Notes under the pieces: generated by a model
What the model saw: only the letters and a program-made list of their open reading frames with translations
Database searches by the model: none
What the model was told of the DNA's origin: nothing
Position numbers and translations under genes: made by a program
Source: Methylomonas sp. 11b
Lineage (GTDB): Bacteria > Pseudomonadota > Gammaproteobacteria > Methylococcales > Methylomonadaceae
Assembly (NCBI RefSeq): GCF_000515215.1
Contig: NZ_KI911557.1
Coordinates: 4,521,741-4,585,740 of the forward strand
Direction: 5' to 3'
DNA length: 64,000 bases
Shown: positions 430-16,286 of the stretch, piece after piece
How positions within the stretch are numbered: position 1 is the first letter of the stretch
How the letters are laid out: each line of letters starts with the position of its first letter

Positions 430-2649
430 ATGAATCCGTATATCGCAATGACGAAAAAGAAACCTTTGATTGTCGCCCTGGAAATCATTTTGGGCCTAAG
501 CTGCGCGACGCTCCAGGCTGCACCCGGCACAGAGCAGCCGGAACAACAGGCGCAGTCCGAAGCTACCGATACTGCCGACAAACCGGCTAAAGCCAAGGTG
601 AAGGCCAAAGCCGATAACACGGAAGAGCTGGGCGCGGTGGAAGTGGAAGAAGACGGCCGCGGCAAGAATTTGATCGGTATTGCACCGTCGGCCTCGCAAG
701 GCGAAGTCAGCCAGAAGCAATTCGAATACCGGCCGTTCTCGCGTAACGGCGAATTGGTCGAAGTGGTACCCGGTGCCGTCGCCACCCAGCATAGTGGCTC
801 CGGCAAGGCCAACCAATACTTCCTGCGCGGCTTTAACCTGGACCACGGTACCGATTTTACGACTTACGTCGACGGTATTCCGATGAACATGACTACCCAC
901 GCCCACGGTCAAGGTTATATGGACATCAACAGCATCATTCCGGAGCTGGTGAAAAAAGTCGAATACGGCAAGGGCCCGTATTACGCGGAAGTGGGGGACT
1001 TCTCGGCGGCCGGTTACGCCAAAATGTTCAGTATGGACAGGCTGGATAAAGGTATCGCCAAATTTACTGCCGGGTCGTTTGATTACTACCGAACGCTGGT
1101 GGCCAATTCCCATAAAATCGGCGACGGCGATTTGCTCTATGCCGGCGAATTCAATCTGTACGACGGTGTTTGGGAAGTGCCGGAAGATTCGAAGAAATTT
1201 AACGGCCAATTGCGCTACACGCTGGATCGCGGCGATTGGGGCATGGCAATCAACGGCAAAGCCTATACCAACAGCTGGACTGCCACCAACCAGATCCCGC
1301 AAGCCGCGATTGATAGCGGCGCCATCGGCCTGTACGGCAGCATGGACCCGACCGACGGCGGCGAGACCAACCGCTATAGCGCCTCGGCCAGCTTTTGGAA
1401 CCAGGGCGGCAACTGGAAAAACGACGCGAATATCTACGCGGTCTATACCGATTTGAATTTATTCTCCAATTTCAGCGGCTTTACCCGCGGTGACGGCGGC
1501 GACCAGATTTTGCAAACCGAGCGCCGAGTACAAACCGGCGGTCATTTCGAGCATACCCGCTACAACAAGCTGTTCGGTTTTGAAATGGACAACAGCATCG
1601 GCCTGCAATTTCGTAACGACCAGATCATGGACTTAGGTCTATACGAAACCACAGCCCGGCAGATCGTCAATACCGTCAGCAAAAGCAATGTCGGTGTGAC
1701 CACGGTGGGCACCTATTTCAAAAACACCACCCACTGGCACGATAAAGTCCGCACCATCGCCGGTTTGCGTGGCGATTTCATCAATAATGAGGTTGAGGTT
1801 TTGGCCAGCGGCAGCGGCACGGCCGAGACCAATGCGGCTAACTCCGGCAGCCGTGGCAAAGCCATGATCAGTCCGAAACTGAGTTTGGTGGTCGGCCCCT
1901 GGTACAACACCGAATACTTCGCGAATATCGGTTACGGCTATCACTCCAACGATGCACGCGGCACTACGCTGCAAGTACATCCAGTGACCGGCACCGATTT
2001 GGACCCGGACGGCAATGCGGTTAGCCCACGGATTCGTCCGGCGGCCTGGTCGCGCGGCGGCGAGGTTGGCGCCCGCACGAATATCATCCCCGGTTTGAAC
2101 AGTACCTTTGCCTTGTGGTGGCTGCAATCCAGCGAAGAGCTGGTGTTCGTTGGCGATGCCGGTACTACCGAAGTCAACGGTAAATCGCAACGTTACGGTA
2201 TCGAGTTTACCAACTACTACAAACCCACCGAATGGCTGACGCTGGACGCCGATTATGCGCTGACGACCGCTCAATTCAACAAAGCTCCGGACGGCGCCAC
2301 CAATAAATTCATTCCTAATTCGGTGGGCCGAGTAATCAGTGCCGGTGCCCTGATCGAAGCGCCCAACGGCCTGTTCGGCACCTTGCGTTTTCGACATTTC
2401 GGCAGCGTACCCTTGGATGAATCAGGCGCGGTTTGGGCCGGCGATACCAATATCGTCAACCTGGGCGCGGGCTATAAGCAAAAGCAATACAAGTTCGAGA
2501 TCGATATCTTCAACATCCTGGGTTCGCAAAGCAACGATATTGCCTACAACTACGAATATAACTATCCGAACGGCGTCGCCGGGGCAGGCCTAATGAAACA
2601 TCCGGTAGAGCCGCGCATGGTGCGTGGCACCATCACGGTCAATTTTTAA
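430..2649 (+). CDS. TonB-dependent outer-membrane receptor
   Basis: This 739-residue protein is an outer-membrane gated beta-barrel of the TonB-dependent receptor family. The ATG at 430 has a good ribosome binding site (AGGAG). A signal peptide ends near LSCATLQA, followed by a Glu/Lys/Ala-rich linker and the TonB-box-like ELGAVEVEE. The plug domain occupies roughly residues 85-200, with YFLRGFNLDHGTDF and YVDGIPMNM, and includes a His pair in TTHAHGQGY. The rest is barrel, ending in phenylalanine (TITVNF) as these proteins do. A HupE-type permease follows 10 bases downstream and a CobN-like gene lies in the same direction, so a metal ion or metallated cofactor is a likely substrate. The exact ligand cannot be read from sequence. 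Confidence 0.93.
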   Translation: MNPYIAMTKKKPLIVALEIILGLSCATLQAAPGTEQPEQQAQSEATDTADKPAKAKVKAKADNTEELGAVEVEEDGRGKNLIGIAPSASQGEVSQKQFEYRPFSRNGELVEVVPGAVATQHSGSGKANQYFLRGFNLDHGTDFTTYVDGIPMNMTTHAHGQGYMDINSIIPELVKKVEYGKGPYYAEVGDFSAAGYAKMFSMDRLDKGIAKFTAGSFDYYRTLVANSHKIGDGDLLYAGEFNLYDGVWEVPEDSKKFNGQLRYTLDRGDWGMAINGKAYTNSWTATNQIPQAAIDSGAIGLYGSMDPTDGGETNRYSASASFWNQGGNWKNDANIYAVYTDLNLFSNFSGFTRGDGGDQILQTERRVQTGGHFEHTRYNKLFGFEMDNSIGLQFRNDQIMDLGLYETTARQIVNTVSKSNVGVTTVGTYFKNTTHWHDKVRTIAGLRGDFINNEVEVLASGSGTAETNAANSGSRGKAMISPKLSLVVGPWYNTEYFANIGYGYHSNDARGTTLQVHPVTGTDLDPDGNAVSPRIRPAAWSRGGEVGARTNIIPGLNSTFALWWLQSSEELVFVGDAGTTEVNGKSQRYGIEFTNYYKPTEWLTLDADYALTTAQFNKAPDGATNKFIPNSVGRVISAGALIEAPNGLFGTLRFRHFGSVPLDESGAVWAGDTNIVNLGAGYKQKQYKFEIDIFNILGSQSNDIAYNYEYNYPNGVAGAGLMKHPVEPRMVRGTITVNF

Positions 2650-2659
2650 GGGCAGCCTG

Positions 2660-3763
2660 ATGATATTTCGCACCTTTAAAGATGGACGATGGCTGATGGC
2701 GGCATTGTTGATGATCCAATCGGTCTGGGTTTACGCGCATCCGCCCGGCCTGAGCTCGCTGGATGTAACGATCAAACCCGCGCAAATTGATGCCAAGGTG
2801 ACCTTTGCCTTGCAAGACATCGAAGCCTTCGCGCCGATGGATAGCGATTTGGACGCGGAGGTGACCGATGCCGAGCGTGAAGCGGCCAAGCCAGCAATTG
2901 CCAAATTGCTGGCCGCGCAACTGCGCGTCAGTGTCGATAGCCGGGATGTTCAGCCTAGCGAACCTGGGCAGGTCAGTTTCGACGATCAAAATAATGCGCG
3001 GGTGGAACTGCACTATGCGGCGCATGTGCAAACAGCTTTGTTGCTACAGTCGAAGTTTTTGGCTTTGCTGCCCGACGGCCATCAGCAGTATTTGACGGTC
3101 AGGGACGCCGACGGCAAAGCGCTTGCCGAGAAAATGCTGGGCAAACACGACGATCAAATCAGTTTACCCATCGCTAACGCGGCGGCGGAGTCCCCCCAAG
3201 CTCCGTTTGCGGCGTTTGGCGATTTTTTTAAGCTGGGCATCGAGCACATCGTCACCGGTTACGACCATCTGCTGTTTTTGTTCGCTTTGTTGGCGGTCAC
3301 TCACAGCTTCTGGCCGGCCTTGAAAATCATCACGTTTTTTACGATAGCCCATTCCATCACCCTGGCTTGCGCCGGACTTAACTTGATCGAGTTGCCCAGC
3401 AGTTTTGTCGAGCCGTTCATTGCCGCGACGATTATCTATGTGGGTGTGGAGAACATCATCCGCGGCGACCATCCCAAGGGCCGGCACTGGTTGACCTTTG
3501 GTTTTGGTTTGATCCACGGTTTTGGTTTTGCCGGCGTGTTGCAGGAAATGGATATTTCTTCGGGCGATACCGGCATCTTGTTGCCCTTGCTGTCGTTCAA
3601 TTTAGGCATAGAAACCGGACAAATCGCCGTCGCCGCTATCGTGTTGCCGATGATCTGGTGGCTGAATAATAAAGTCGAGACTGCCGAGAAGTTTCTAAAA
3701 GCCGGTTCGATTGCCGTCAGCTTGATGGGCGCATTCTGGTTGGTGGAGCGAATCATGCTGTAA
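2660..3763 (+). CDS. HupE/UreJ-family metal permease with exported N-terminal domain
   Basis: The protein (367 residues from ATG 2660) has a signal peptide ending in VYA before a mature histidine (HPPGLSSLD). A soluble domain of about 160 residues follows, then a membrane domain of roughly six or seven helices from about residue 190. That domain contains the HupE/UreJ signatures EHIVTGYDHLLFLFALL, HSITLACAGL and FGFGLIHGFGFAGVL with conserved His and Asp. HupE/UreJ proteins are linked to nickel or cobalt uptake. The gene starts 10 bases after the TonB receptor, so the pair probably forms an outer- plus inner-membrane import route. An upstream in-frame start at 2624 would overlap the receptor and spoil the signal peptide, so I rejected it. 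Confidence 0.85.
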   Translation: MIFRTFKDGRWLMAALLMIQSVWVYAHPPGLSSLDVTIKPAQIDAKVTFALQDIEAFAPMDSDLDAEVTDAEREAAKPAIAKLLAAQLRVSVDSRDVQPSEPGQVSFDDQNNARVELHYAAHVQTALLLQSKFLALLPDGHQQYLTVRDADGKALAEKMLGKHDDQISLPIANAAAESPQAPFAAFGDFFKLGIEHIVTGYDHLLFLFALLAVTHSFWPALKIITFFTIAHSITLACAGLNLIELPSSFVEPFIAATIIYVGVENIIRGDHPKGRHWLTFGFGLIHGFGFAGVLQEMDISSGDTGILLPLLSFNLGIETGQIAVAAIVLPMIWWLNNKVETAEKFLKAGSIAVSLMGAFWLVERIML

Positions 3764-3976
3764 ATACAACCGAATGGCGGGATCCAAGCCCGCAGTTGCT
3801 GCCTCAAGGCCACCTAAACTGGCCTGATTCAATCCTGATCCAAAAAAATGGTTCATCCGAGCCACGGATTGCTATTGCCTGTCGTTTGGGTAAAGCGGTG
3901 ATGGGTTTTCAGGTAAGCGTCTGAGTAAAAAAGATTTTTTAATAAAACAACAACAATTTTATAGAGGAGGAAGGCC
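3764..3976 (+). promoter_or_regulatory. intergenic gap that may hold a promoter
   Basis: This 213-base gap separates the permease from the ExbB-like gene. Its 3' end is AT-rich (poly-A and poly-T runs at 3929-3960) and leads into a strong ribosome binding site, GAGGAGGAAGG at 3964-3974. A separate promoter for exbB-DUF2149-cobN-like genes is plausible, but I cannot assign -35 and -10 boxes. Confidence 0.25.
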
Positions 3977-4585
3977 GTGGAACTCACCCATACACTAGAA
4001 CAAATTCTGTACATGATCTCGTCGTCGCTCTACCTGCCGGTATTGCTGATCGTCACTTTGCTGGCCGCTTATTCGGTCTATGTCTGCGGTCGTTTGGCGC
4101 AGGAATGGCTGGAACGACGCAAGGCCGGCTCGCGCACCGTGCGCTTGTTCAATCTCGATCTGGCCGTCGCGCTGGGGCGCCAGCAACGCGCCAATGCCGC
4201 GCCGCTGGACGTGGAATTGGAGTTGCTGCTGCAAACCCACGAACATCAGCAATTGATCAAGTTGGACCAAGTTCGCTTTGTCATTAAATTGGGGCCGGCG
4301 CTGGGTTTGATGGGCACTTTGATTCCGATGGGTATTTCCCTGGCTGCCTTGGCACAAGGCAACATTCCCAGCATGGCCGGCAGCATGGTCACCGCGTTTA
4401 CCGCTACCGTCACCGGTTTGGGCTGCGGCGTAATCACCTATCTGGTGGCATTGGTACGCGAGCAATGGCTGCGTGCCGATTTTGCGGCGATGCGCCATCA
4501 GGCCGAACTGGCTGCCAGTCGGATTCTGGACGCACAAGACCTGACTATCGCGGAGGAAAGCCATGCGCTATCTGAGACGCTCTAA
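3977..4585 (+). CDS. MotA/TolQ/ExbB-family proton channel protein
   Basis: This 202-residue inner-membrane protein starts at GTG 3977 behind GAGGAGGAAGG. It has one hydrophobic helix near residues 18-38 and two more near 105-130 and 135-160. The region KLGPALGLMGTLIPMG, then MVTAFTATVTGLGCGVITYLV, is the MotA/TolQ/ExbB proton-channel signature. Family members use the proton gradient to drive partners such as TonB. The next gene overlaps it by 23 bases and encodes a single-helix protein suited to the ExbD role. Together they may energise the neighbouring TonB receptors or the CobN-like enzyme; that assignment is inference from context. Confidence 0.88.
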   Translation: MELTHTLEQILYMISSSLYLPVLLIVTLLAAYSVYVCGRLAQEWLERRKAGSRTVRLFNLDLAVALGRQQRANAAPLDVELELLLQTHEHQQLIKLDQVRFVIKLGPALGLMGTLIPMGISLAALAQGNIPSMAGSMVTAFTATVTGLGCGVITYLVALVREQWLRADFAAMRHQAELAASRILDAQDLTIAEESHALSETL

Positions 4586-4898
4586 TCTGCACCGCAACAG
4601 CGAGCCGCTGGAAGATCCGATTGCCGGCGTCGCGAATCTGTTCGATGCCAGCGTGGTGTTCATCGTTAGCATGATGGTGGCCTTGTTCATGGCTTACAAC
4701 ATGCTGGATTTGATGAACCCGGAGTCGACTGTGACGATGACCAAGGAGAACGCCGACGGCACGATGGAGATCGTCAGTAAGAAGGGTTCGCAGATCAAGG
4801 TATCCAAAGTCACCGACCGCAAACTCAGCGGTTCCGGCGAGCGCTTGGGGACCGCCTATCGCTTGAACGACGGCAAGGTAGTTTATGTGCCGGAATAA
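4563..4898 (+). CDS. DUF2149 protein, ExbD-like in topology
   Basis: The 111-residue product starts at an ATG inside the end of the ExbB-like gene, behind GGAGGAAAGCC. It has a short cytoplasmic N-terminus, one transmembrane helix near residues 30-50 with an aspartate (D28) just at its entry (NLFDASVVFIVSMMVAL), and a small periplasmic domain. This matches the DUF2149 family. The single helix with a proton-relay-type Asp resembles ExbD/TolR/MotB. It overlaps both neighbours, so translation is coupled. The ExbD-like role is inference; the family assignment is from recall of its size and pairing with ExbB-type and CobN-like genes. Confidence 0.75.
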   Translation: MRYLRRSNLHRNSEPLEDPIAGVANLFDASVVFIVSMMVALFMAYNMLDLMNPESTVTMTKENADGTMEIVSKKGSQIKVSKVTDRKLSGSGERLGTAYRLNDGKVVYVPE

Positions 4899-7800
4899 AT
4901 ACTGGGCCTGGCTGCTGATCCCGTTGCTGTGGTTGGCGACCGGTTTGGCAGCGGCCGAAACGCCTATCAACCTGAGCCTGATCCTCGGTGACCTGGATTC
5001 GCAAACCGCCGTCGAAGCCACGGCCAAACTGCAAAATGATCCGTTGTTGAAAGGCGTGTCGATCCGAGTGTATTCCAGCTCCAAGCTGGCGCAAGCCGAT
5101 AGTGCTGCATTGCAAACATCCCATCTGGTACTAGCGCAGATTACCGGGCGCGGCATTCTGCGCGAGGGCGGCGAGATGTTCAAACAGATCGTCGCGCGCG
5201 GCGGCAAGCTGTACGCGGTGGGTTTGAGTTACGACGCGGATTTCGCCGACTACGGCCTGCAACTGGACAAAGAGCTGCAAGCCTATATGTCGGCCGGCGG
5301 CGCCGACAATGCCGCCAACATGATCCGACTGGCCTTGGCCAAATTCAAAAACGTCCAGGCCGACATCGCGCCGCCGCAAGCTCAGCCGGAAATCGGCGCC
5401 TTCGACGTGCGCAGCAAGCAATTGTTCGCGGATTTTGATAGCTACCAAAAAGCTTACGCGGGTTTCAAAGCAGGCCAACCGTGGATAGCCATTTTGTTCT
5501 ATCGCTCCTCGGCTTTGTCCGGGCAAACCGATACGGTAAAAACTTTGGCCGAAAATCTGGAGGCCAAAGGCTACAACGTACTGCCGGTGTTCGGCTACCC
5601 CTACGACAAAACTCTGGAAAAAATGCTGATCAATGCCGACGGCAAATCACGGGTCGAAGCCATCGCCGCGCTAGCCTTGAAGATCGGCGCCAGCCCGGAC
5701 AAAACCGTACCGACGCTGACGCGTTTGGGGGTGCCGGTGTTAAACGGTATTGCCTTGAATAGCCAAAGCCAGACGCAATGGACCGAGTCCGCAACTGGTC
5801 TGGACGTCATGGAGCGGGCCTGGCAAGTGGCCTTGCCGGAATTCGCCGGCGAAATCGCCCCGACCGTGGTCGCCAGCAAGGAGAGCGTACACGACAAGAT
5901 CACCGGCCAGGATTTCGTCCGCGAAACCCCAATCCCGGAACGCATCGCCCGCTACGCCGACCGCCTGGACAAGTGGGTGAAATTGCGCAGTACCGGCAAC
6001 GCCGACAAAAAAGTCGCCTTGATGTACTACAACTACCCGCCGGGCAAGGAGAACATCGGCGCCTCCTATTTGAACGTGTTGCCGGAATCGTTGCTGCAAA
6101 TCTTGGAGAGACTGCGTAAGGAAGGGTATCAATTGGGCAATGCGCCGCAAGATGGCGATGCCTTGAAAGCCGCTGTCAAAAATCACGGCATCAACCTAGG
6201 CAACTGGGAGCCCGGCGCGATTGCCGAAGCCGCCGCCAGCGGCCGCGCGGTGTTGCTGCCGATCGAAGACTACCAAAAATGGTTCGACACCTTGCCGGAA
6301 ACCTTCAAGGCGGCGATGCTGAAGTCGTGGGGCAAACCGGAAGACAGCAAGATCGGCGCCTGGACCGACGCCAAGGGCAAGCGCTTTTTGATCCTACCGG
6401 CGCTGCAATACGGCAATCTGCTGCTGGCACCGCAACCGTCGCGCGGTTGGGAGCAGGACGTCAAAAAACTCTACCACGACGTGACCATGCCGCCGCACCA
6501 TCAATACGTGGCGTTTTACTTATGGCTGCAAAAAGGCTATGGCGCGAACGCGATGATCCATCTGGGCACCCACGCCACCCACGAATGGCTATCCGGTAAG
6601 GAAGTGGGTTTCAGCGCAGTCGATCCCGGCGAGATTCTGATGGCCGACGTGCCGCAGATTTACCCCTACATCATGGATGACGTCGGCGAAGCCTTGCAGG
6701 CCAAGCGCCGAGCGATGGCGACGATTATTTCGCATATGACGCCGCCTTTGGACAAGGCCGATCTGAATCCGGAACTGGCTAAGCTGGCGGGTTTACTGGA
6801 CGACTACAACGTCGCCGCGCAAAAAAGCGAACAGCTGGCAAAGATCAGGCTGGATGAGATCAACCAGATCGCCGGCAAGGCCGGGCTGCTGAAAGACCTG
6901 AAAATGCAACGCGCCGAAACCGGCGACCAGCTGGAAGAGCTGGAACATTATTTAAAGGAAATCCGCGAGAAAAAAGTGCCGATGGGCTTGCATACCTTTG
7001 GCAAGGCGCCGGACGAAGCAACCCGCTTGCGTTTTGCCGAAGCCATCGTGTCGCGCGACACCAAGCTGAAAGGTGAGGCCCGCAAGCAGAAAATCCAGGC
7101 CATGGCCAACATCATAGCCGACAGCGCCAACGCCGAAATGGACGCGCTGATGGATGCGCTGGCCGGCTTCTATATCGCAGCCGGCAGCGGCGGCGACCCG
7201 TTGCGTAACCCGGACGCGTTGCCGACCGGCAAGGATTTGTACGGTTTCGATCCGTCGCGGATTCCCAGCGAGTCGGTTTATAACGAAGGCGCACGACTGG
7301 CGGAGCAAGTGGTCGCCGATTTCAAAAAGCAGCACGGCCACTATCCGGAGCGGCTGGTATTCAATTTGTGGGGCGTGGAAAGCTCGCGCCACGAAGGCGT
7401 GATGGAAGCCGAGATCATGCATCTGCTCGGCGTCAAACCGCATTGGGACGAACGCGGTCGCACCCAAGGTGTGGACGTGATTGCGCGGGATAAACTGGGC
7501 CGGCCACGCGTCGATGTCACCATCATTCCGTCCGGTTTGTATCGGGATTTGTTCTCCTCAGTCATCAAGCTGTTGGATCAGGCCGAAACCAAGGCTCAGG
7601 AACAGGACGAGCCGGACAATCCATTACGCCGGCATATCCAGGAAACCCAGGCTGAATTGGTCAAGCGCGGATTGAAAGCTGAGGAAGCGTTGGACATGGC
7701 TTCGGCCCGCTTGTTCAGCGTGCCGTCCGGTGCCTACGGCACCAATTTGGATCGGGCGATTCCGCTGTCCAACACCTGGACCGACGAAAAGCAACTGGCC

Positions 7801-8844
7801 GACATATTCTTCAACCGCATGCACCACGTTTACGGTCGCGGCCATTGGGGCGAAGCAGCCAGCCAGGACGCGACGCTGGCGGTGGACTTATTCAAAATGT
7901 CGTTAAAGGATACCGACGCGGTGATCCACAGCCGCTCTAGTAACGTCTACGCCAGCCTGGACGGCGACGACTTCTTCCAATATCTGGGCGGCACCGCAAT
8001 GGCGGCAAGGCAGGTCAACGGCAAAACCCCTGAAGTGTTGGTCGCCGATTTGTCCGACCCGACCGCTGCCAAGACTATGAGTCTGGAGCGCTATCAGGGC
8101 CGGGAAATGCAAAGCCGCTACCTGAACCCGAAATGGATAGAGTCGATGTTGAAAGAAGGCTATGCCGGCGCCCGCTTCATCAATATGGTCGCGGAAAACC
8201 TGTGGGGTTGGCAGGTGACGGTGCCGGAAGCGGTCGGCAGCGAGAAATGGCAGGCGATGTACGAAACCTACGTCGAGGACAAATACCAGCTGGACATCCA
8301 GAAAAAGTTCGAACAGGCCGACAACCTGCTGGCCTACCAAGCGATGGTGGATCGGATGTTGGTGGCTATCAACAAAGGCTACTGGAAAGCCGATCCGGCG
8401 GTGAAAGCCAAGCTGGAACAAGTTAACAAGGAAGTCATTGCCAAAGCTGGCGTGGCCTGCAACAAGGACACTTGCAGCAGCCCGGAAATCACCAAGCTAG
8501 CCGAACAACAGGATGCAGCCAAGGCTGCGAAAGCAGCGGCGCCGGGGGCGCAAGCCCAACCACCGGCATCCGCAGCGGCTCAGTCACAGCCGCAGCCCAT
8601 ACAGAGTCAGCCGCAATCGCAACAGCCACCCGCGCAGTCTCAAGCACAAGCTGCGCCGGATGCCGCCAAGCCTCTGGAAGGCTATGAGATGGAAGAGAAG
8701 AAAGCCGCCAGCGACAGCGACAGCGCCGAGCAACAGCAACCGTTGAGTTCGGCGCAAAGCTGGTGGTTGAGTTTCGCGATATTGCTGTTGTTTGCTGCCG
8801 GTTATCTGCGCGGTAGTTGGGAGCAGCGTAAGCAAAAAACCTAG
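4885..8844 (+). CDS. exported, membrane-anchored CobN-like chelatase
   Basis: This 1319-residue protein belongs to the CobN/magnesium-chelatase H-subunit family. The motif HLGTHATHEWL begins at H559, and IYPYIMDDVGEALQAKRRA follows as in cobaltochelatases. Unlike cytoplasmic CobN it begins with a signal peptide (AWLLIPLLWLATGLAAA, then ETP). It ends with a Pro/Gln/Ala-rich linker, a transmembrane helix at about 1293-1311 and a positive tail (EQRKQKT), so the catalytic body should lie in the periplasm. A cysteine pair at C1192/C1197 sits before the linker. No CobS/CobT ATPase partner is nearby. The closest context I know is the CobN-like HmuS protein of Bacteroidetes haem-uptake operons. I infer insertion or, more likely, removal of a metal from a tetrapyrrole. 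It overlaps the DUF2149 gene by 14 bases. Confidence 0.88.
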   Translation: MCRNKYWAWLLIPLLWLATGLAAAETPINLSLILGDLDSQTAVEATAKLQNDPLLKGVSIRVYSSSKLAQADSAALQTSHLVLAQITGRGILREGGEMFKQIVARGGKLYAVGLSYDADFADYGLQLDKELQAYMSAGGADNAANMIRLALAKFKNVQADIAPPQAQPEIGAFDVRSKQLFADFDSYQKAYAGFKAGQPWIAILFYRSSALSGQTDTVKTLAENLEAKGYNVLPVFGYPYDKTLEKMLINADGKSRVEAIAALALKIGASPDKTVPTLTRLGVPVLNGIALNSQSQTQWTESATGLDVMERAWQVALPEFAGEIAPTVVASKESVHDKITGQDFVRETPIPERIARYADRLDKWVKLRSTGNADKKVALMYYNYPPGKENIGASYLNVLPESLLQILERLRKEGYQLGNAPQDGDALKAAVKNHGINLGNWEPGAIAEAAASGRAVLLPIEDYQKWFDTLPETFKAAMLKSWGKPEDSKIGAWTDAKGKRFLILPALQYGNLLLAPQPSRGWEQDVKKLYHDVTMPPHHQYVAFYLWLQKGYGANAMIHLGTHATHEWLSGKEVGFSAVDPGEILMADVPQIYPYIMDDVGEALQAKRRAMATIISHMTPPLDKADLNPELAKLAGLLDDYNVAAQKSEQLAKIRLDEINQIAGKAGLLKDLKMQRAETGDQLEELEHYLKEIREKKVPMGLHTFGKAPDEATRLRFAEAIVSRDTKLKGEARKQKIQAMANIIADSANAEMDALMDALAGFYIAAGSGGDPLRNPDALPTGKDLYGFDPSRIPSESVYNEGARLAEQVVADFKKQHGHYPERLVFNLWGVESSRHEGVMEAEIMHLLGVKPHWDERGRTQGVDVIARDKLGRPRVDVTIIPSGLYRDLFSSVIKLLDQAETKAQEQDEPDNPLRRHIQETQAELVKRGLKAEEALDMASARLFSVPSGAYGTNLDRAIPLSNTWTDEKQLADIFFNRMHHVYGRGHWGEAASQDATLAVDLFKMSLKDTDAVIHSRSSNVYASLDGDDFFQYLGGTAMAARQVNGKTPEVLVADLSDPTAAKTMSLERYQGREMQSRYLNPKWIESMLKEGYAGARFINMVAENLWGWQVTVPEAVGSEKWQAMYETYVEDKYQLDIQKKFEQADNLLAYQAMVDRMLVAINKGYWKADPAVKAKLEQVNKEVIAKAGVACNKDTCSSPEITKLAEQQDAAKAAKAAAPGAQAQPPASAAAQSQPQPIQSQPQSQQPPAQSQAQAAPDAAKPLEGYEMEEKKAASDSDSAEQQQPLSSAQSWWLSFAILLLFAAGYLRGSWEQRKQKT

Positions 8845-8846
8845 AG

Positions 8847-8961
8847 GTCGGCCCGAAAACCTTGGTTATGTCTTTCCAGCGAAGGCGGTAACTCAGAAAA
8901 GTTGGAAGTCTGGATCCCCGCTTGCGCGGGGATGGCGGCTATAGGGGATTTAAGGGCCGAC
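8847..8961. repeat. palindromic intergenic element, copy A
   Basis: A 115-bp stretch is bounded by the inverted repeat GTCGGCCC (8847-8854) and GGGCCGAC (8954-8961). Inside is a perfect 8-bp stem, ATCCCCGC (8914-8921) with GCGGGGAT (8926-8933). The right end TTTAAGGGCCG recurs at 43950-43960, closing an element of nearly the same size. I read both as copies of one REP- or MITE-like family. Copy A could also act as a weak terminator after the CobN-like gene. Confidence 0.5.
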
Positions 8962-9105
8962 TTAGGCCCGATATGAATAACGGCGTGGTGCCTTGATAGA
9001 CGAAATTCGAGGGCTGGTCCGCGCTCGATGTAAGAAAAATTAAAAATATATCCAACAAACCATAAGCAGCCATCTCGTTTGGCGGTTGATTACAGGAGGA
9101 GTACT

Positions 9106-11448
9106 TTGTCTCGTTTATCTTTAATAACGCTGTTGGCCTTGAGCAATTTGGCCTACAGCACTCAAATCCTGGCGGAAGAAATCGATCAAGCTGCGGCGGG
9201 GTCTACCGAAACCACGAAGACAGACAAATCGGCGGGCAACGAAGACACGTTGGGCGCAACCGTGGTGACCGCTACCCGCTCGGAAATGAGCGCCGCGATG
9301 GCCCCTGCGAATGTCAGTGTGATTACCACCGATAATACTGAAAACCGCCTGACCCAACGTATCGGCGATGCGTTGAAAGACGTGCCGGGGGTGTATTTGC
9401 GCGGGAGTGCTTACGGTACTAACTTTCCTGGATCCAGCGTGGCGTCTTCAAGTTTTCACGGTGTCAGCGGCACTAACCGCTCCTTGTATTTAATCGATGG
9501 TCTGCCGGTCAATACCGGCAGCAACGGAAATGTCGATTGGAATATCCTGAACATGGACGACGCCCAGCAAGTGGAGTACGTGCCGGGACCGTTCTCGGCT
9601 TTGTACGGCAGCGGGGCGATGGGCGGGGTATTGAACGTGATCTCCAAGGTGCCGACCAAACGCGAGGGCCGCTTGTCGTTTGGTGCCGGCGGCGCGGCGG
9701 TCGATCAATGGGGCATCAAGGGCCGTTACCGGGACCGTTTCGAAAACGGTTTAGGGATTTCGTTGACCTTTAATCATATGGATAGCGACAATTGGGCGGT
9801 CTCGGATTATGTCACGGTCGCGCGCAGTACCACGGCCACCAACGGTGCGTCGGTGCCGGTGTTAGGCGCAACGCCGACCATCAACAACCAGGGCGCCCCG
9901 GTGTATCTGATCGGCGACAAGGGCAGGCGCCCCTGGGAGCAAAATAACGCGTCGCTGCATCTGTATTACGATCTGACGCCCAGCACCCAAATCGACGGCG
10001 GCATGAGTTGGAGCCGCAGCGAAACTAGCGATACCGGTAGCTATAACAGTTATTTGACCCGTAGTAACGGCAATCCACTGGCGATAGGCGTCGGCAACGC
10101 CGGCAATCCCAGCAATAACATCAATATCGACGGTCGCCGTTACAACGTCTACGAACAATTATTCCTGCATTCCTTGCCGTCAATCGAAGACACGCGGCGT
10201 TATTTCACGCATCTGAAGCACGATTTTGGGCATGATGTGAAGTTGAATATCGACTTCCAATACATGCAACACGAGACTTACTCGCCGTTTGCCAACGTTA
10301 CCTCGGATTCGCTAAGCGGCGGCACTGGCCAATTGACGGTGACGCCCAGCAACCGGATTGACGGTAACGTGGCATTGCGTTTTCCTTTTCTTTGGGCGCA
10401 ACGCAATTTCCTGACTGTGGGCTTTGGCGCCACGCACAGCGAGTTGGAAGGCCAATCGCGCTATGCACTAGGCAACTGGCGTAACTGGGACTCAATCACC
10501 AGCCGCACCGCTTTTGGTAGCGGTGAGTCCAGTATTTATTCGGCCTATTTGCAGGATGAACTGTGGATCATGAGCAATCTGATCGCGCATTTAGGGGTGC
10601 GTTATGACGATTGGTCGACCTCGGGTTTGAATCAAAGTACCAGTCCCGCAGTGAACCGCAGCTATCAGGAACGCTCGGTTGGACAGTTTAATCCCAAGTT
10701 TAGCCTGACTTGGTTGCCAGTCGACGGCTACAAGTTGTTTGCGTCCACTGGTTGGGCATTTCGTCCGCCCACCAATTTCGAGTTGTACGGCAACACGCAA
10801 ACATCAACGGTTTTGACCGAACCCAATCCGAACTTGGAACCGGAAACCATGCATTCCTGGGAAGTGGGCGGCGAGGCTACGCCTATCGGGGGCACCACTA
10901 TAGCAGCCAGCTATTTTCATCATTACATCAGCGATCTGATCTATGCCAAAAGCGGAATTCCGACTCCCGGTTTACTGCAAACGCTCACCGAAAGGCAGAA
11001 TGCCGGCAAGGCCGAGGTGGAAGGCGTGGAAGTTAAGTTGCGGCAGAAACTGTATTGGGATTGGCTGCACTTCAACGGCACGTACACGCTGAACGATTCG
11101 ATCATCACCGAAAACACCGCCAATCCGTTAATCGTCGGTAAGCAAATGGTGCAATTGCCGGAAACCATGTTTAGCGGCGCACTGGACGTCAAATACGACA
11201 AATGGATCGGTGGCATCATTGGCCGCTATGTCAGTCAGCCGTACTTCGACGATCAGAACCTGGACCAATACACTAATGTGCCGGGTAGCTACGACCCGTA
11301 TTTTCTGGTTGATACCCGCATCGCGTATCAGGCCACGAAGAATATCGACTTGTCGTTTTCGGTGAATAACTTGTTGGCTAGGGAGTATTCGGCGTTTTAC
11401 CAACAAGCCGGCCGCACGGTTTATGGGGAAATTTCTTACAGCTTTTAG
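9106..11448 (+). CDS. second TonB-dependent receptor
   Basis: I place the start at TTG 9106, five bases after a perfect AGGAGGAG; an upstream TTG at 9079 has no such site. The 780-residue product has a signal peptide (LSLITLLALSNLAYSTQILA), a TonB-box region at about ATVVTATRS, a plug domain (residues about 55-190 with LYLIDGLPVNTG and ALYGSGAMGGVLNVISK) and a barrel ending in ISYSF. It resembles BtuB/HmuR-type receptors more than the first receptor does. The gap upstream contains a repeat element, so it may have its own promoter. The ligand is unknown; a metallated tetrapyrrole would fit the CobN-like neighbour. Confidence 0.92.
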   Translation: MSRLSLITLLALSNLAYSTQILAEEIDQAAAGSTETTKTDKSAGNEDTLGATVVTATRSEMSAAMAPANVSVITTDNTENRLTQRIGDALKDVPGVYLRGSAYGTNFPGSSVASSSFHGVSGTNRSLYLIDGLPVNTGSNGNVDWNILNMDDAQQVEYVPGPFSALYGSGAMGGVLNVISKVPTKREGRLSFGAGGAAVDQWGIKGRYRDRFENGLGISLTFNHMDSDNWAVSDYVTVARSTTATNGASVPVLGATPTINNQGAPVYLIGDKGRRPWEQNNASLHLYYDLTPSTQIDGGMSWSRSETSDTGSYNSYLTRSNGNPLAIGVGNAGNPSNNINIDGRRYNVYEQLFLHSLPSIEDTRRYFTHLKHDFGHDVKLNIDFQYMQHETYSPFANVTSDSLSGGTGQLTVTPSNRIDGNVALRFPFLWAQRNFLTVGFGATHSELEGQSRYALGNWRNWDSITSRTAFGSGESSIYSAYLQDELWIMSNLIAHLGVRYDDWSTSGLNQSTSPAVNRSYQERSVGQFNPKFSLTWLPVDGYKLFASTGWAFRPPTNFELYGNTQTSTVLTEPNPNLEPETMHSWEVGGEATPIGGTTIAASYFHHYISDLIYAKSGIPTPGLLQTLTERQNAGKAEVEGVEVKLRQKLYWDWLHFNGTYTLNDSIITENTANPLIVGKQMVQLPETMFSGALDVKYDKWIGGIIGRYVSQPYFDDQNLDQYTNVPGSYDPYFLVDTRIAYQATKNIDLSFSVNNLLAREYSAFYQQAGRTVYGEISYSF

Positions 11449-12535: not shown

Positions 12536-12553
12536 CGGAATTTGGGGGATGAC

Positions 12554-13594
12554 GTGGCTGGCGGACAAGATTTAAACGAAAGATCGCTGTATTTATTAAA
12601 AACCTTGGTTGAACGTTATATCCAGGACGGCCAGCCTGTTGGTTCGCGATTGTTGTCTAAAGATCCGCAGCTAAAGCTTAGTCCGGCCAGTATTCGCAAT
12701 GTGATGGCGGATCTGGAAGAGATGGGCTTGATCCATTCCCCGCACACTTCCGCCGGCCGAGTACCGACCGTGAGCGGCTATCGTTTATTCGTCGACAGTT
12801 TGTTAACCGTCAAGCCTTTGGCATCCAGCGAGTTGGATCAACTGCAACATGGCTTGAAAGGCGAGGCGGATAAGGCTAGCGACGTGTTGAGCAAGGCCTC
12901 TAAATTGCTGTCGGACGTGACGCGGATGGCCGGCGTGGTGACTTTGCCGCGCAGAGAAAGCGTCACCTTGCGGCACATCGAATTTCTACCGATGTCCAAT
13001 ACCCGGGTGTTGGTGATTTTCGTCACCGACGACCAGGAAGTGCACAACAAAATTATTCATACCCACAAGCAATTCAGTCCTGCGGAATTACAACAGGCTG
13101 CCAACTATTTGAATTCGGTTTATTCCGGCCGCAGCTTGGCGAAAATTCGCGATTTGATCGTGCGGGAGATGGAACACGATCAGCGGCAGGTCAATCAAGG
13201 CATGATGGACGCGGTGAACATGGCACAGCTTACCTTCACCGAGCAACCCAACGACGATTATGTATTAAGCGGCGAAACGAATTTAATGGGCTTTTCCGAG
13301 TTGTCGGACATGGAGCGTCTTAAACAACTGTTCGAAGCTTTTAGCCAAAAGCGTGGCGTCATCCATTTATTGGATCAGTGTTTACAGGCCGAAGGTGTGC
13401 AGATTTTTATCGGTGAAGAGTCCGGCTATAGCGCATTCGATCATTGCAGCTTGGTGACGGCGCCTTATTCAGTGAATGACGAAGTGGTTGGGGTGTTGGG
13501 TGTGATTGGACCGACCCGCATGGCTTACGAAAAAGTGATTCCGTTCGTGGATGTGACGGCAAAATTATTGGGCGCGGCCTTGAATCCGAAATAA
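12554..13594 (+). CDS. hrcA: heat-inducible transcription repressor HrcA
   Basis: HrcA represses chaperone genes by binding CIRCE and is kept active by GroEL. The protein is 346 residues, the normal length. It begins with a winged-helix domain (LNERSLYLLKTLVERYI and GQPVGSRLLSK) and a typical NVMADLEEMGLIHSPHTSAGRVP segment. The dimerisation and GAF-like parts follow. I choose GTG 12554, which has GGGGGA just upstream; a TTG at 12542 overlaps that site. A CIRCE element lies 18 bases upstream. Confidence 0.95.
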   Translation: MAGGQDLNERSLYLLKTLVERYIQDGQPVGSRLLSKDPQLKLSPASIRNVMADLEEMGLIHSPHTSAGRVPTVSGYRLFVDSLLTVKPLASSELDQLQHGLKGEADKASDVLSKASKLLSDVTRMAGVVTLPRRESVTLRHIEFLPMSNTRVLVIFVTDDQEVHNKIIHTHKQFSPAELQQAANYLNSVYSGRSLAKIRDLIVREMEHDQRQVNQGMMDAVNMAQLTFTEQPNDDYVLSGETNLMGFSELSDMERLKQLFEAFSQKRGVIHLLDQCLQAEGVQIFIGEESGYSAFDHCSLVTAPYSVNDEVVGVLGVIGPTRMAYEKVIPFVDVTAKLLGAALNPK

Positions 13595-13644
13595 ATGGCC
13601 CTATCGTTAGGCCAACAAAAAGTTTTAGAACCATGGAGTAAGTA

Positions 13645-14280
13645 ATGAGTCATCAGCAATCTAGCCACGAACCACAATCGGATAGCGATTTGATAGCCGA
13701 AGTCTTGGAGCAAACCAAGCCAATGGACGCCGACGAACAGCCTAATGAAGCGCCCGGCGCCGCAGTCACTGTGGAAGCCTTGCAGGAACAACTGGAGCAA
13801 GCCCAGCAACAGGCTGCGGCCAATCTGGATAAAGCCATCCGCACCATGGCTGAGATGGAAAATTTAAAAAAACGCGTGCAAAAAGACTTGGACGACGAAC
13901 GCAAATACGGTCTGGCGAAATTTGCCAAAGAATTGCTGAGTGTTTTGGATAGTCTGGAATTAGGCCTGCAAGCGGCGACCGGCGATAGCCCGGAAATAGT
14001 GAAATTGCGCGAAGGCAGCGAATTGACCATCAAACAATTCGAGTCGGTATTTGCCAAGTTTAATATCGAAACCGTCGACCCCATTGGTCAAGTGTTCAAT
14101 CCGGAATTACACCAGGCCATGGTGATGCAACCCAGCGCCACCGCCCAACCCAACACCGTGTTAAACGTCTTCCAAAAAGGTTATGTATTGAACGGCCGTC
14201 TGCTGCGTCCTGCCATGGTGGTGGTGGCCAAAGCCGACGATAAACCGGCCGATAGTGCAAAAATCGATGAGCAGGCTTGA
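13645..14280 (+). CDS. grpE: nucleotide exchange factor GrpE
   Basis: GrpE promotes ADP release from DnaK. The 211-residue protein has an acidic, unstructured N-terminus, a long helix (residues about 45-100, with RTMAEMENLKKRVQKDLDD) that forms the dimer, and a C-terminal beta domain with GQVFNPELHQAMVM and VFQKGYVLNGRLLRPAMVVV, the GrpE signature. ATG 13645 has GGAG nearby. It lies between hrcA and dnaK as in many bacteria. Confidence 0.96.
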   Translation: MSHQQSSHEPQSDSDLIAEVLEQTKPMDADEQPNEAPGAAVTVEALQEQLEQAQQQAAANLDKAIRTMAEMENLKKRVQKDLDDERKYGLAKFAKELLSVLDSLELGLQAATGDSPEIVKLREGSELTIKQFESVFAKFNIETVDPIGQVFNPELHQAMVMQPSATAQPNTVLNVFQKGYVLNGRLLRPAMVVVAKADDKPADSAKIDEQA

Positions 14281-14351
14281 AATTAAGACGATCAACCGCA
14301 TATCGCTAACAACTTTTTAATTTATTACCAAATCAAGTCTGGAGAATATCA

Positions 14352-16286
14352 ATGGGCAAAATGATCGGCATCGATTTAGGAACCACTAACTCCTGCGTCG
14401 CAGTCCTGGAAAACGGCACCGCGCGGGTTATCGAAAACAGCGAAGGCGCGCGCACCACGCCTTCTATCATCGCATTCACCGGCGACAACGAAGTATTGGT
14501 CGGCCAATCGGCTAAACGTCAGGCGGTCACCAACCCTGAGAATACTTTGTTCGCGATCAAACGTTTGATCGGCCGTCGCTTTAAAGAAGATGCGGTACAA
14601 AAAGACATCAAGATGGTGCCTTATAAAATTATGGAAGCCAACAACGGTGACGCTTGGGTGGAATGTCACGGTAAAAAAATGGCGCCGCCAGAAGTATCAT
14701 CACGGGTGCTGATGAAGCTGAAAAAAGACGCGGAAGCGTTTTTGGGCGAAGAAGTCACAGAAGCGGTTATCACCGTGCCTGCGTACTTTAACGACTCGCA
14801 ACGTCAAGCGACTAAAGACGCCGGACGGATTGCCGGTCTGGATGTGAAACGGATCATCAACGAGCCGACCGCTGCCGCGTTAGCGTTTGGTATGGACAAA
14901 CCGAAAGGCGACACTACCATCGCGGTTTACGATTTGGGCGGTGGTACTTTCGATATTTCCATCATCGAAATCGCTGAAATTGAAGGCGAGCACCAATTCG
15001 AAGTATTGGCCACCAACGGCGATACTTTCCTGGGTGGTGAAGACTTTGACTTGCGCATAATCGATTTCCTGGCCGGCGAATTCAAACGCGACAGCGGCAT
15101 CGATTTGCACAACGATCCATTGGCGCTGCAACGTCTGAAAGAAGCCGCGGAAAAAGCCAAAATCGAATTGTCATCAGCCGAACAAACTGACATCAATCTG
15201 CCGTACATTACCGCCGATGCGTCCGGTCCGAAACATTTGAATGTCAAACTGACGCGGGCCAAACTGGAGTCGCTGGTTGACGAACTGATCGAAAGAACCA
15301 AAGGTCCTTGCTTGCAAGCGATTAAAGATGCCGGTATTTCGACATCTAAAATCAACGACGTGATCTTGGTCGGCGGTCAAACCCGCATGCCGAAAGTCCA
15401 AGCCTTCGTGAAAGAGTTGTTTGGTAAAGAACCACGCAAAGACGTTAACCCTGACGAAGCGGTAGCCTTGGGTGCGGCGATTCAAGCCGGCGTATTGGGT
15501 GGCGACGTCAAAGACGTATTGTTGCTGGACGTCACCCCGCTGTCATTGGGTATCGAAACCCTGGGCGGCGTGATGACCAAGTTGATCGAGAAAAACACCA
15601 CGATTCCGACCAATGCCTCGCAAACCTTCTCGACGGCAGACGATAACCAAACCGCAGTAACCGTGCATGTGTTGCAAGGCGAGCGCGAAGTGGCGGCGGG
15701 TAATAAATCATTGGGTCGTTTTGATTTACAAGACATTCCACCCGCACCGCGCGGTATCCCGCAAATCGAAGTATCGTTTGATATCGATGCTAACGGTATC
15801 TTGAACGTATCGGCGAAAGACAAAGCCACCGGCAAGAAACAATCCATCGTGATTAAAGCGTCCAGCGGTTTGTCGGATGAAGAAGTCGAACGCATGGTGC
15901 GAGATGCCGAATTACATGCTGACGAAGACCGCAAACTGAAAGAACTGGTGTCGGCGCGCAACTCTGCTGAAGGCATGATCCACGCCACCGAAAAGTCCTT
16001 GAAAGAATTGGGCGATCAAGTATCCGGCGACGAAAAATCGGCCATCGAATCGGCGATCAAAGACCTGCACGCGGTGATCAAGTCTGACGATAAAGAGGCG
16101 ATTGAAGCTAAAACTCATGCCTTGACCGAACTGTCCGGTAAATTGGCGGAACGCGTTTACGCACAGAAAGGTGCGGAAGGCGGTGCCGAGGCCGGACATG
16201 CCGCAGGCGCCTCTGACGCTGCCGCCGAGCATGATCACAACGTGGTCGATGCCGAATTTGAAGAAGTTAAGGACGATAAAAAGTAA
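14352..16286 (+). CDS. dnaK: Hsp70 chaperone DnaK
   Basis: DnaK is the ATP-dependent chaperone that works with DnaJ and GrpE. At 644 residues it is full length. The ATPase domain shows [27 protein letters not shown] and [14 protein letters not shown]. The substrate-binding domain follows (residues about 390-505), then a helical lid and a short acidic C-terminal tail ending EEVKDDKK. The start has TGGAGAATATCA upstream. In this window dnaJ does not follow directly: an accessory segment of about 1.1 kb separates them. Confidence 0.98.

Follow-up and report, generated by a model that had tools for sequence, protein, structure and literature searches.

The window analysed here is a stretch of 64,000 nucleotides from Methylomonas sp. 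11b that starts at G000:C1:4521741 in a one-contig genome of 5.41 Mb (G000). Its first 11,448 positions hold a cluster of permeases, TonB-dependent receptors (TBDRs) and an exported CobN-type chelatase, for which we develop a reading as a candidate nickel-acquisition system. A first-pass annotation made from the sequence had listed six of these genes, and all six were recovered at their positions on the plus strand with strong family matches. TBDR1 (430-2649; Plug 2.6e-13) has the stretch THAHGQGY in its plug and is followed after 10 nt by HupE2, a HupE_UreJ_2 permease (2660-3763; 4.2e-46). A gap of 213 nt (3764-3976), part-conserved among Methylomonas loci, separates HupE2 from the chelatase core. 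This core consists of an ExbB/MotA/TolQ-type proton channel, hereafter ExbB (3977-4585; MotA_ExbB 1e-9), DUF2149 (4563-4898; 5.9e-32), and a CobN-type class I chelatase of 1319 amino acids with a GTH motif and a CX4C pair (4885-8844; CobN-Mg_chel 1033 bits). The gene overlaps reported for this central part are real and amount to 23 nt between ExbB and DUF2149 and 14 nt between DUF2149 and CobN. After a further 234 nt comes TBDR2 (9079-11448; barrel 6.2e-52, Plug 1.5e-22), which falls into the neighbourhood of haem/B12 receptors and reaches 187.7 bits against the TonB-hemin model, below the cut-off of 316.85.

The window opens inside a seventh gene, HupE1, and positions 1-342 on the plus strand are only its 3' end. 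The whole gene (L040:10930-12342), whose first ATG lies 1071 bases upstream of the window, encodes a canonical HupE/UreJ permease (PF04955 9.1e-44) with the motif HPLNGWDH and a C-terminal extension. A motif around N..PG...L.S.G.G.TSPP is conserved in this extension in 13 of 13 aligned sequences (L040:10930-12342 and 12 others), and in L091 part of it is present twice. HupE2 has a signal peptide, a histidine at the N-terminus of the mature protein (AHPPGLSS, cleavage site by eye) and a periplasmic domain that is of the Ang-1 type by description. Of 28 listed HupE2 sequences, 27 show the pattern AH[PAD]PGLSS, and the two features of the Ang-1-HupE/UreJ-2 anglerases, a histidine right after the signal peptide and PF13795, are both present. 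Sequence searches of the PDB gave no match for HupE2 or TBDR1. No RNA family reached the cut-off in an Rfam scan of the whole window, and the gap between HupE2 and ExbB gave two Rfam matches only, both below their cut-offs. Large subunits of [NiFe]-hydrogenases are encoded in the same genome.

The comparison covered nine distinct loci from Methylomonas that carry this CobN, namely the window, L003-L009 and L059. ExbB, DUF2149 and CobN each occur in all nine, TBDR2 in all seven whose contig is long enough (L005 and L007 end earlier), and HupE1 again in all nine (by Pfam in the window, L006 and L009, by alignment in the others). The conservation of the gene set that the first-pass annotation had looked to exists across Methylomonas loci, and its recurrence argues that the arrangement is not due to chance. 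TBDR1 and HupE2 were found in seven of the nine loci; both are missing from L006 and L009, where HupE1 adjoins or overlaps ExbB. Stretches without CobN (L075, L076, L079, L080, L084, L089, L090 and L091) carry HupE1-TBDR1 and/or TBDR1-HupE2. The genomes behind the first six (G079, G011, G061, G041, G096 and G001) gave no CobN match at all, and those of L090 and L091 (G067 and G039) have a CobN match elsewhere. The cluster is therefore composed of two modules, HupE1-TBDR1-HupE2 and ExbB-DUF2149-CobN-TBDR2. Since the modules occur apart and TBDR1-HupE2 is absent from two loci, the six genes do not form one indivisible system. Of the single demetallation system proposed before, the unit of exported CobN, TonB receptor, ExbB and DUF2149 stands as a conserved entity, while the six genes as a whole come apart. 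A steady permease partner also exists, but it is HupE1 (9/9), which lay beyond the view of the first-pass annotation, and not HupE2 (7/9). The earlier demetallation model is in this sense partly supported.

On inspection, the chelatase sequence is hydrophobic at the N-terminus and carries a hydrophobic anchor at the C-terminus, and the protein is predicted to be exported and membrane-anchored. Among solved structures it is closest to two CobN proteins (7c6o and 9uk9) and to HmuS (9d26); for the C-terminal half alone, HmuS comes first with 266 bits. In a tree of 69 rows (rooted at midpoint for drawing only, with the cut sequences L007 and L040 left out, and built without PA1923 of Pseudomonas aeruginosa and without the solved HmuS), 16 rows form a B12 CobN clade and 53 stand outside it. 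These 53 comprise three HmuS, three Cupriavidus-like proteins, 18 rows of type A, including Azospirillum and L041, and a clade of 29 around the window protein, to which Trichlorobacter, G723 and, at support 94 and on a long branch, Runella belong. Within the B12 CobN clade, eleven of the 16 come from B12 clusters (type B, confirmed on L053, and two annotated plasmids), and five are without checked B12 context (the second copies of L106, L114 and L124, and L122 and L123). A crude hydropathy test scored an N-terminal segment in 21 of 29 members of the window clade vs 3 of the 16 B12 CobN rows, and a C-terminal segment in 22 of 29 vs none of 16.

Threonine precedes the catalytic histidine, matching Thr537-His538 of HmuS, in HmuS (3/3), in type A (18/18) and, as GTH, in the window clade (29/29), that is in 50 of 50 when the Cupriavidus-like proteins are counted apart and in 50 of 53 when they are included. 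In the B12 CobN clade this residue is lysine in 13 of 16, threonine in two and alanine in one. The position of HmuS His1209 is histidine in all three HmuS, histidine in ten and aspartate in eight of the type A proteins, and aspartate in the window clade (29/29), the Cupriavidus-like proteins (3/3) and 13 of 16 B12 CobN. The window clade (29/29) and the Cupriavidus-like proteins (3/3) have a CX4C pair towards their C-terminus, and this pair is aligned in one of three HmuS, none of 18 type A proteins and none of 16 B12 CobN. Taking the roles of HmuS residues from the sections of PMC12583661 used here, we find that Phe502, Ser1014, Gln1198, Trp1202, Met79 and His254 are not kept in the window chelatase; the haem ligands Met79 and His254 face threonine and isoleucine in a stretch that aligns weakly. 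The Met-rich insertion of HmuS (domain IV, residues about 690-890) has no counterpart in the window protein either. Clade placement and missing features together make this protein an exported relative of HmuS rather than a HmuS by sequence, and it is probably not a haem enzyme.

The likeness to the haem operons nevertheless extends to the partners. As far as the consulted sections of PMC12583661 describe hmuYRSTUV of Bacteroidota, both systems have a TonB receptor, an exported and anchored CobN-type protein (here by prediction), an ExbB-like protein, DUF2149 and the Thr-His pair of the active site. They differ in that the Methylomonas cluster is without HmuY, has HupE permeases in place of HmuT, and is accompanied by NikR in relatives. 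The idea that HmuT might be a DUF2162 protein was dropped, as three HmuT proteins gave no Pfam match.

CobN and ChlH, class I chelatases that share the fold family and the catalytic histidine with the window enzyme, differ from it in being cytosolic, driven by AAA+ ATPases (established; summarized in part of PMC12583661) and metal-inserting. The occurrence of possible motor genes was compared in 121 genomes of the family, 23 of them with CobN; exported and cytosolic forms were told apart by the tree or, for G048, G116 and G039, by the best BLAST match to tree rows. DUF2149 exceeds its cut-off in all 14 genomes with exported CobN and in none of the nine with only cytosolic CobN, and an AAA+ partner (ChlI-type AAA plus VWA, at E 1e-80) is present in all ten with cytosolic CobN and in none of the 13 with only the exported form, counts that are inflated by the shared descent of the genomes. 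G065 holds both forms. Within this sample, 15 of 17 DUF2149 copies over the cut-off lie within about 5 kb of CobN, and G026 and G073 have DUF2149 matches below the cut-off. The periplasm holds no ATP, and we therefore propose the ExbB-DUF2149 pair in place of the AAA+ ATPase of cytosolic CobN; we put the chance of such a motor swap at a little under even. DUF2149 is predicted to have a single transmembrane helix followed by a periplasmic part. In 18 of 19 sequences the helix starts with NL.D (glutamate replaces the aspartate in Runella), and agreement with ExbD, TolR and MotB is limited to this topology and the conserved aspartate. Separate TonB-ExbB-ExbD sets stand beside ExbB-DUF2149 in L104 (annotated), L112, L115 and L047 (by Pfam), and probably in L042 (ExbD by phmmer only), which argues against reading ExbB-DUF2149 as just the motor of TonB. 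That the pair serves the chelatase is the simplest reading.

Evidence on the metal, which the first-pass annotation had left open, comes from the neighbourhood and points to nickel. NikR heads the gene set in five of the nine Methylomonas loci (L003, L004, L005, L008 and L059; by Pfam in all five), where it precedes HupE1-TBDR1-HupE2, and none was seen in the 2.4, 4.0 and 7.8 kb available before HupE1 in L006, L007 and L009. The NikR of L003 keeps H..HVH..C, which we take to be the nickel ligands of the Escherichia coli protein. In the family as a whole, NikR_C occurs in seven of the 121 genomes, one of them marginal, and five of these seven (G011, G079, G117, G041 and G107) have a copy at most about 5 kb upstream of HupE2. 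Published work (PMC11247825, PMC12537917) describes nickel TonB receptors and HupE/Ang-1 permeases linked to NikR, which have NikR, a TonB receptor and a HupE with N-terminal histidine in common with the present cluster; the parts of these reports used here describe no chelatase alongside.

Chelatase cores in nickel settings also occur in other lineages. Genome G091, from another genus of the same family, encodes HupE (PF04955 7.3e-40), a nickel superoxide dismutase (PF09055 3.4e-43), a small open reading frame, ExbB, DUF2149 and an exported CobN in this order (L041:4763-11170). A FUR-family gene lies further upstream in L041, and the locus represents a second nickel arrangement in the family. 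In Azospirillum brasilense, CobN-ExbB-DUF2149 is followed by a periplasmic binding protein, a FecCD permease and a TBDR, with NikR some 6.7 kb further along, on the opposite strand. On plasmid pRUNSL01 of Runella slithyformis, the order is hypA-hypB-hypF-TBDR-permease-ExbB-DUF2149-CobN-hypC-hypD-hypE together with [NiFe]-hydrogenase subunits; the permease is annotated as 'urease accessory protein' and matches NicO and DsbD_2 below the cut-offs. These are three of 27 non-Methylomonas DUF2149-CobN loci (L041-L049, L104, L105, L107, L108, L110, L112, L115-L121 and L127-L131), whose flanks are of very unequal length. With nickel markers in three of 27, the assignment to nickel holds for particular lineages and does not extend to the family as a whole. 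For the Methylomonas cluster we consider nickel the probable metal, with good though not full confidence.

The core itself is more widespread. Close relatives in another order (G1118 with 54%, G887 with 51% and G965 with 48%) keep the order TBDR...ExbB-DUF2149-CobN and have no nickel markers. Outside Bacteroidota, the same core has been published as PA1922-PA1925 of Pseudomonas (PMC4542158, PMC9431628) and on plasmid pSZ77 of Geobacter (Trichlorobacter) lovleyi (PMC3403914). The gene complement of PA1922-PA1925, compared by description and as far as the consulted parts of these papers go, is a TBDR, a CobN-like protein, a protein annotated as ExbD and DUF2149, and a complement of this type (TBDR, CobN, ExbB and DUF2149 together) is present at the window locus; the Pseudomonas operon differs in its regulation by Zur (zinc), in the order TBDR-CobN-Exb-DUF2149 and in having no HupE as listed. 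On pSZ77, the order TBDR-DUF2162-ExbB-DUF2149-CobN-ExbB-ExbD-TonB-TBDR among cobalamin genes resembles the TBDR-permease-ExbB-DUF2149-CobN...TBDR of the window, the CobN proteins fall in the same tree clade, and likewise no CobS or CobT was found, according to the part of PMC3403914 used. It differs in its cobalamin riboswitches, in DUF2162 in the permease slot and in its own TonB-ExbB-ExbD. In GC-rich loci, genes were assigned by homology and by GC content at codon positions. The open-access literature searched, mostly at listing level, yielded no recognizable methanotroph system or nickel CobN system.

Taken together, these data let us propose, at slightly better than even chances, that the locus is a two-module nickel-acquisition cluster in which a nickel tetrapyrrole would be demetallated in the periplasm with the help of an ExbB-DUF2149 motor. 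Nickel starvation would lift NikR repression in species with NikR. Passage across the outer membrane would be through TBDR1 for nickel as the ion or in small chelates, and through TBDR2 for a larger nickel chelate, most probably a tetrapyrrole complex of the metal. The anchored CobN-type enzyme would remove the nickel in the periplasm, driven by ExbB-DUF2149 as a proton-powered motor comparable to ExbB-ExbD and MotA-MotB. The freed metal would then be passed into the cytoplasm by HupE1 and by HupE2, whose N-terminal histidine domain resembles Ang-1 (PMC12537917, in the part consulted), and may supply the hydrogenases there. Metal removal in the periplasm, taken as a reaction by itself, appears fairly likely.

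A number of observations weigh against this proposal. The genome of the window is itself without a NikR gene, as a search of the whole genome indicates, and four types of consensus pattern detected no NikR-type operator in the upstream region. Nickel markers are missing from 24 of the 27 non-Methylomonas loci, in screens that excluded urease, carbon monoxide dehydrogenase and other nickel genes; among these 24, one locus follows cobalamin riboswitches and three belong to hmu-type operons. With respect to the motor, DUF2149 was considered as an ExbD homologue, which was not borne out: its profile similarity to ExbD is not significant (hhalign probability 4.6%), a profile search of the PDB gave no ExbD match, and at E 0.001 its low-confidence model (predicted local distance difference test, pLDDT, 64.5) matches no fold in the PDB. 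DUF2149 also occurs in genome G104 (G104:C495) with no CobN found and as a second, lone DUF2149-like copy without CobN nearby in G107 (G107:C1:3162358-3162561), and PMC12583661, in the part consulted, assigns HmuU/HmuV to powering the receptor. The Cupriavidus-like exported proteins (3/3) have arginine before the histidine, and their stretches gave no ExbB or DUF2149 matches. Further points of this kind favour particular alternatives.

The alternative to which we give most weight, although it remains rather unlikely, is that two independent loci merely stand side by side, one a nickel importer of the NikR type and the other a chelatase system unrelated to it. It would account for the finding of each module without the other and for the 213-nt gap between HupE2 and ExbB. 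It fits poorly with L006 and L009, where TBDR1-HupE2 is missing yet HupE1 remains and adjoins ExbB, and with the nickel markers that accompany chelatase cores in three other lineages. Copper is a competitor on the side of the metal, with TBDR1 and HupE2 as importers and the chelatase freeing copper from a chelate. CopC, a copper-binding family, adjoins NikR in L003, L004, L008 and L059 and accompanies many HupE2 paralogues, and a related Ang-1 domain prefers copper, with 74 nM for Cu vs 220 nM for Ni (PMC12537917, section 8). Because of this proximity of CopC, copper stays open for HupE2. A copper system as a whole seems very improbable to us, since the regulator, NikR, carries its nickel-binding domain, HupE1 belongs to the nickel/cobalt permease family, and the settings in Runella, Azospirillum and G091 are those of nickel. 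A clean division of HupE2 gene contexts into nickel and copper was considered and rejected, as the tree mixes the contexts. HupE2 paralogues recur in a set of BNR-repeat protein, CopC, unknown membrane protein and HupE2 with varying members (L072, L074, L078, L079 and L081-L091), which is also present in the window's own genome (G000:C1:2856912) and looks like a separate uptake set for a metal, perhaps copper.

Two further readings keep the demetallation and change the substrate. In a haem-iron system, a proteobacterial HmuS would take iron from haem delivered by TBDR2, and the nickel genes would be chance neighbours. The rank of HmuS for the C-terminal half, the resemblance of TBDR2 to haem receptors and the hmu set of TBDR, CobN, ExbB and DUF2149, seen in the hmu-type operons of Bacteroides finegoldii, Aureibacter and Prevotella nigrescens, all speak for it. 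Against these stand the missing insertion and HmuS residues described above, the absence of HmuY and FeoB among the seven genes, and a steady partner that is a HupE and not an iron permease, so that we regard this possibility as improbable. Scarcely better placed, and still quite unlikely, is a system releasing cobalt from imported corrinoids for transport by HupE1. The Trichlorobacter homologue (about 48% identity) lies directly behind tandem cobalamin riboswitches and among cobalamin and cobalt-transport genes, and some HupE proteins transport cobalt, as stated in the consulted part of PMC7689651. Rfam finds these riboswitches in Trichlorobacter only and none at the cut-off in the window, L003, L009, L059, L080 or L105; relatives have NikR, and no cobalamin genes were recognized in the Methylomonas loci, where Pfam covered some of the genes. 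The cobaltochelatase of B12 biosynthesis, as which PF02514 and the name 'cobaltochelatase subunit CobN' present the enzyme in databases, can practically be dismissed: the protein stands outside the B12 CobN clade, is exported by sequence and scores below every CobN equivalog cut-off listed, and G000 has no AAA+ partner at E 1e-80 and no other PF02514 protein. We rejected this simple reading on the grounds of clade, equivalog scores and missing AAA+ partner.

If the nickel proposal is correct, the cluster would do for nickel what a known enzyme of gut bacteria does for iron, which it removes from haem, and it would reveal a way of driving a chelatase without ATP. Nickel would then have a tetrapyrrole supply in methane-cycling sediments. 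It would also explain a role for the ExbB-DUF2149 pair, DUF2149 being seldom named in the open-access literature. Periplasmic CobN enzymes could then be a general route to the metal of tetrapyrroles; which metal it is would depend on the lineage and could be read off the regulator and neighbouring genes. In its widest form, which we offer as speculation and think unlikely, a chelatase driven by proton-motive force would serve iron in hmu operons, zinc in Pseudomonas, cobalt in Trichlorobacter and nickel here, and Methylomonas would mine tetrapyrrole nickel for its hydrogenases, for instance from coenzyme F430 released by methanogens or methane-oxidising archaea living below. F430 is suggested as the source on ecological grounds.

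Some observations stand apart from these questions. The Cupriavidus-type loci L106:8737-17801, L114 and L124 each combine a CobN of the exported clade with one of the B12 clade; in L106 the two copies flank a CobW-like GTPase (by eye), and the stretch has no ExbB or DUF2149 matches. In L115:2331-4060, a gene for a CbiK-type class II chelatase and one Peripla_BP_2 gene follow the exported CobN, which places two chelatase classes in one cluster. Further along the window, downstream of a glycine-zipper gene, positions 12542-16286 presumably encode HrcA-, GrpE- and DnaK-like heat-shock proteins, recognized by eye and unrelated to the cluster.

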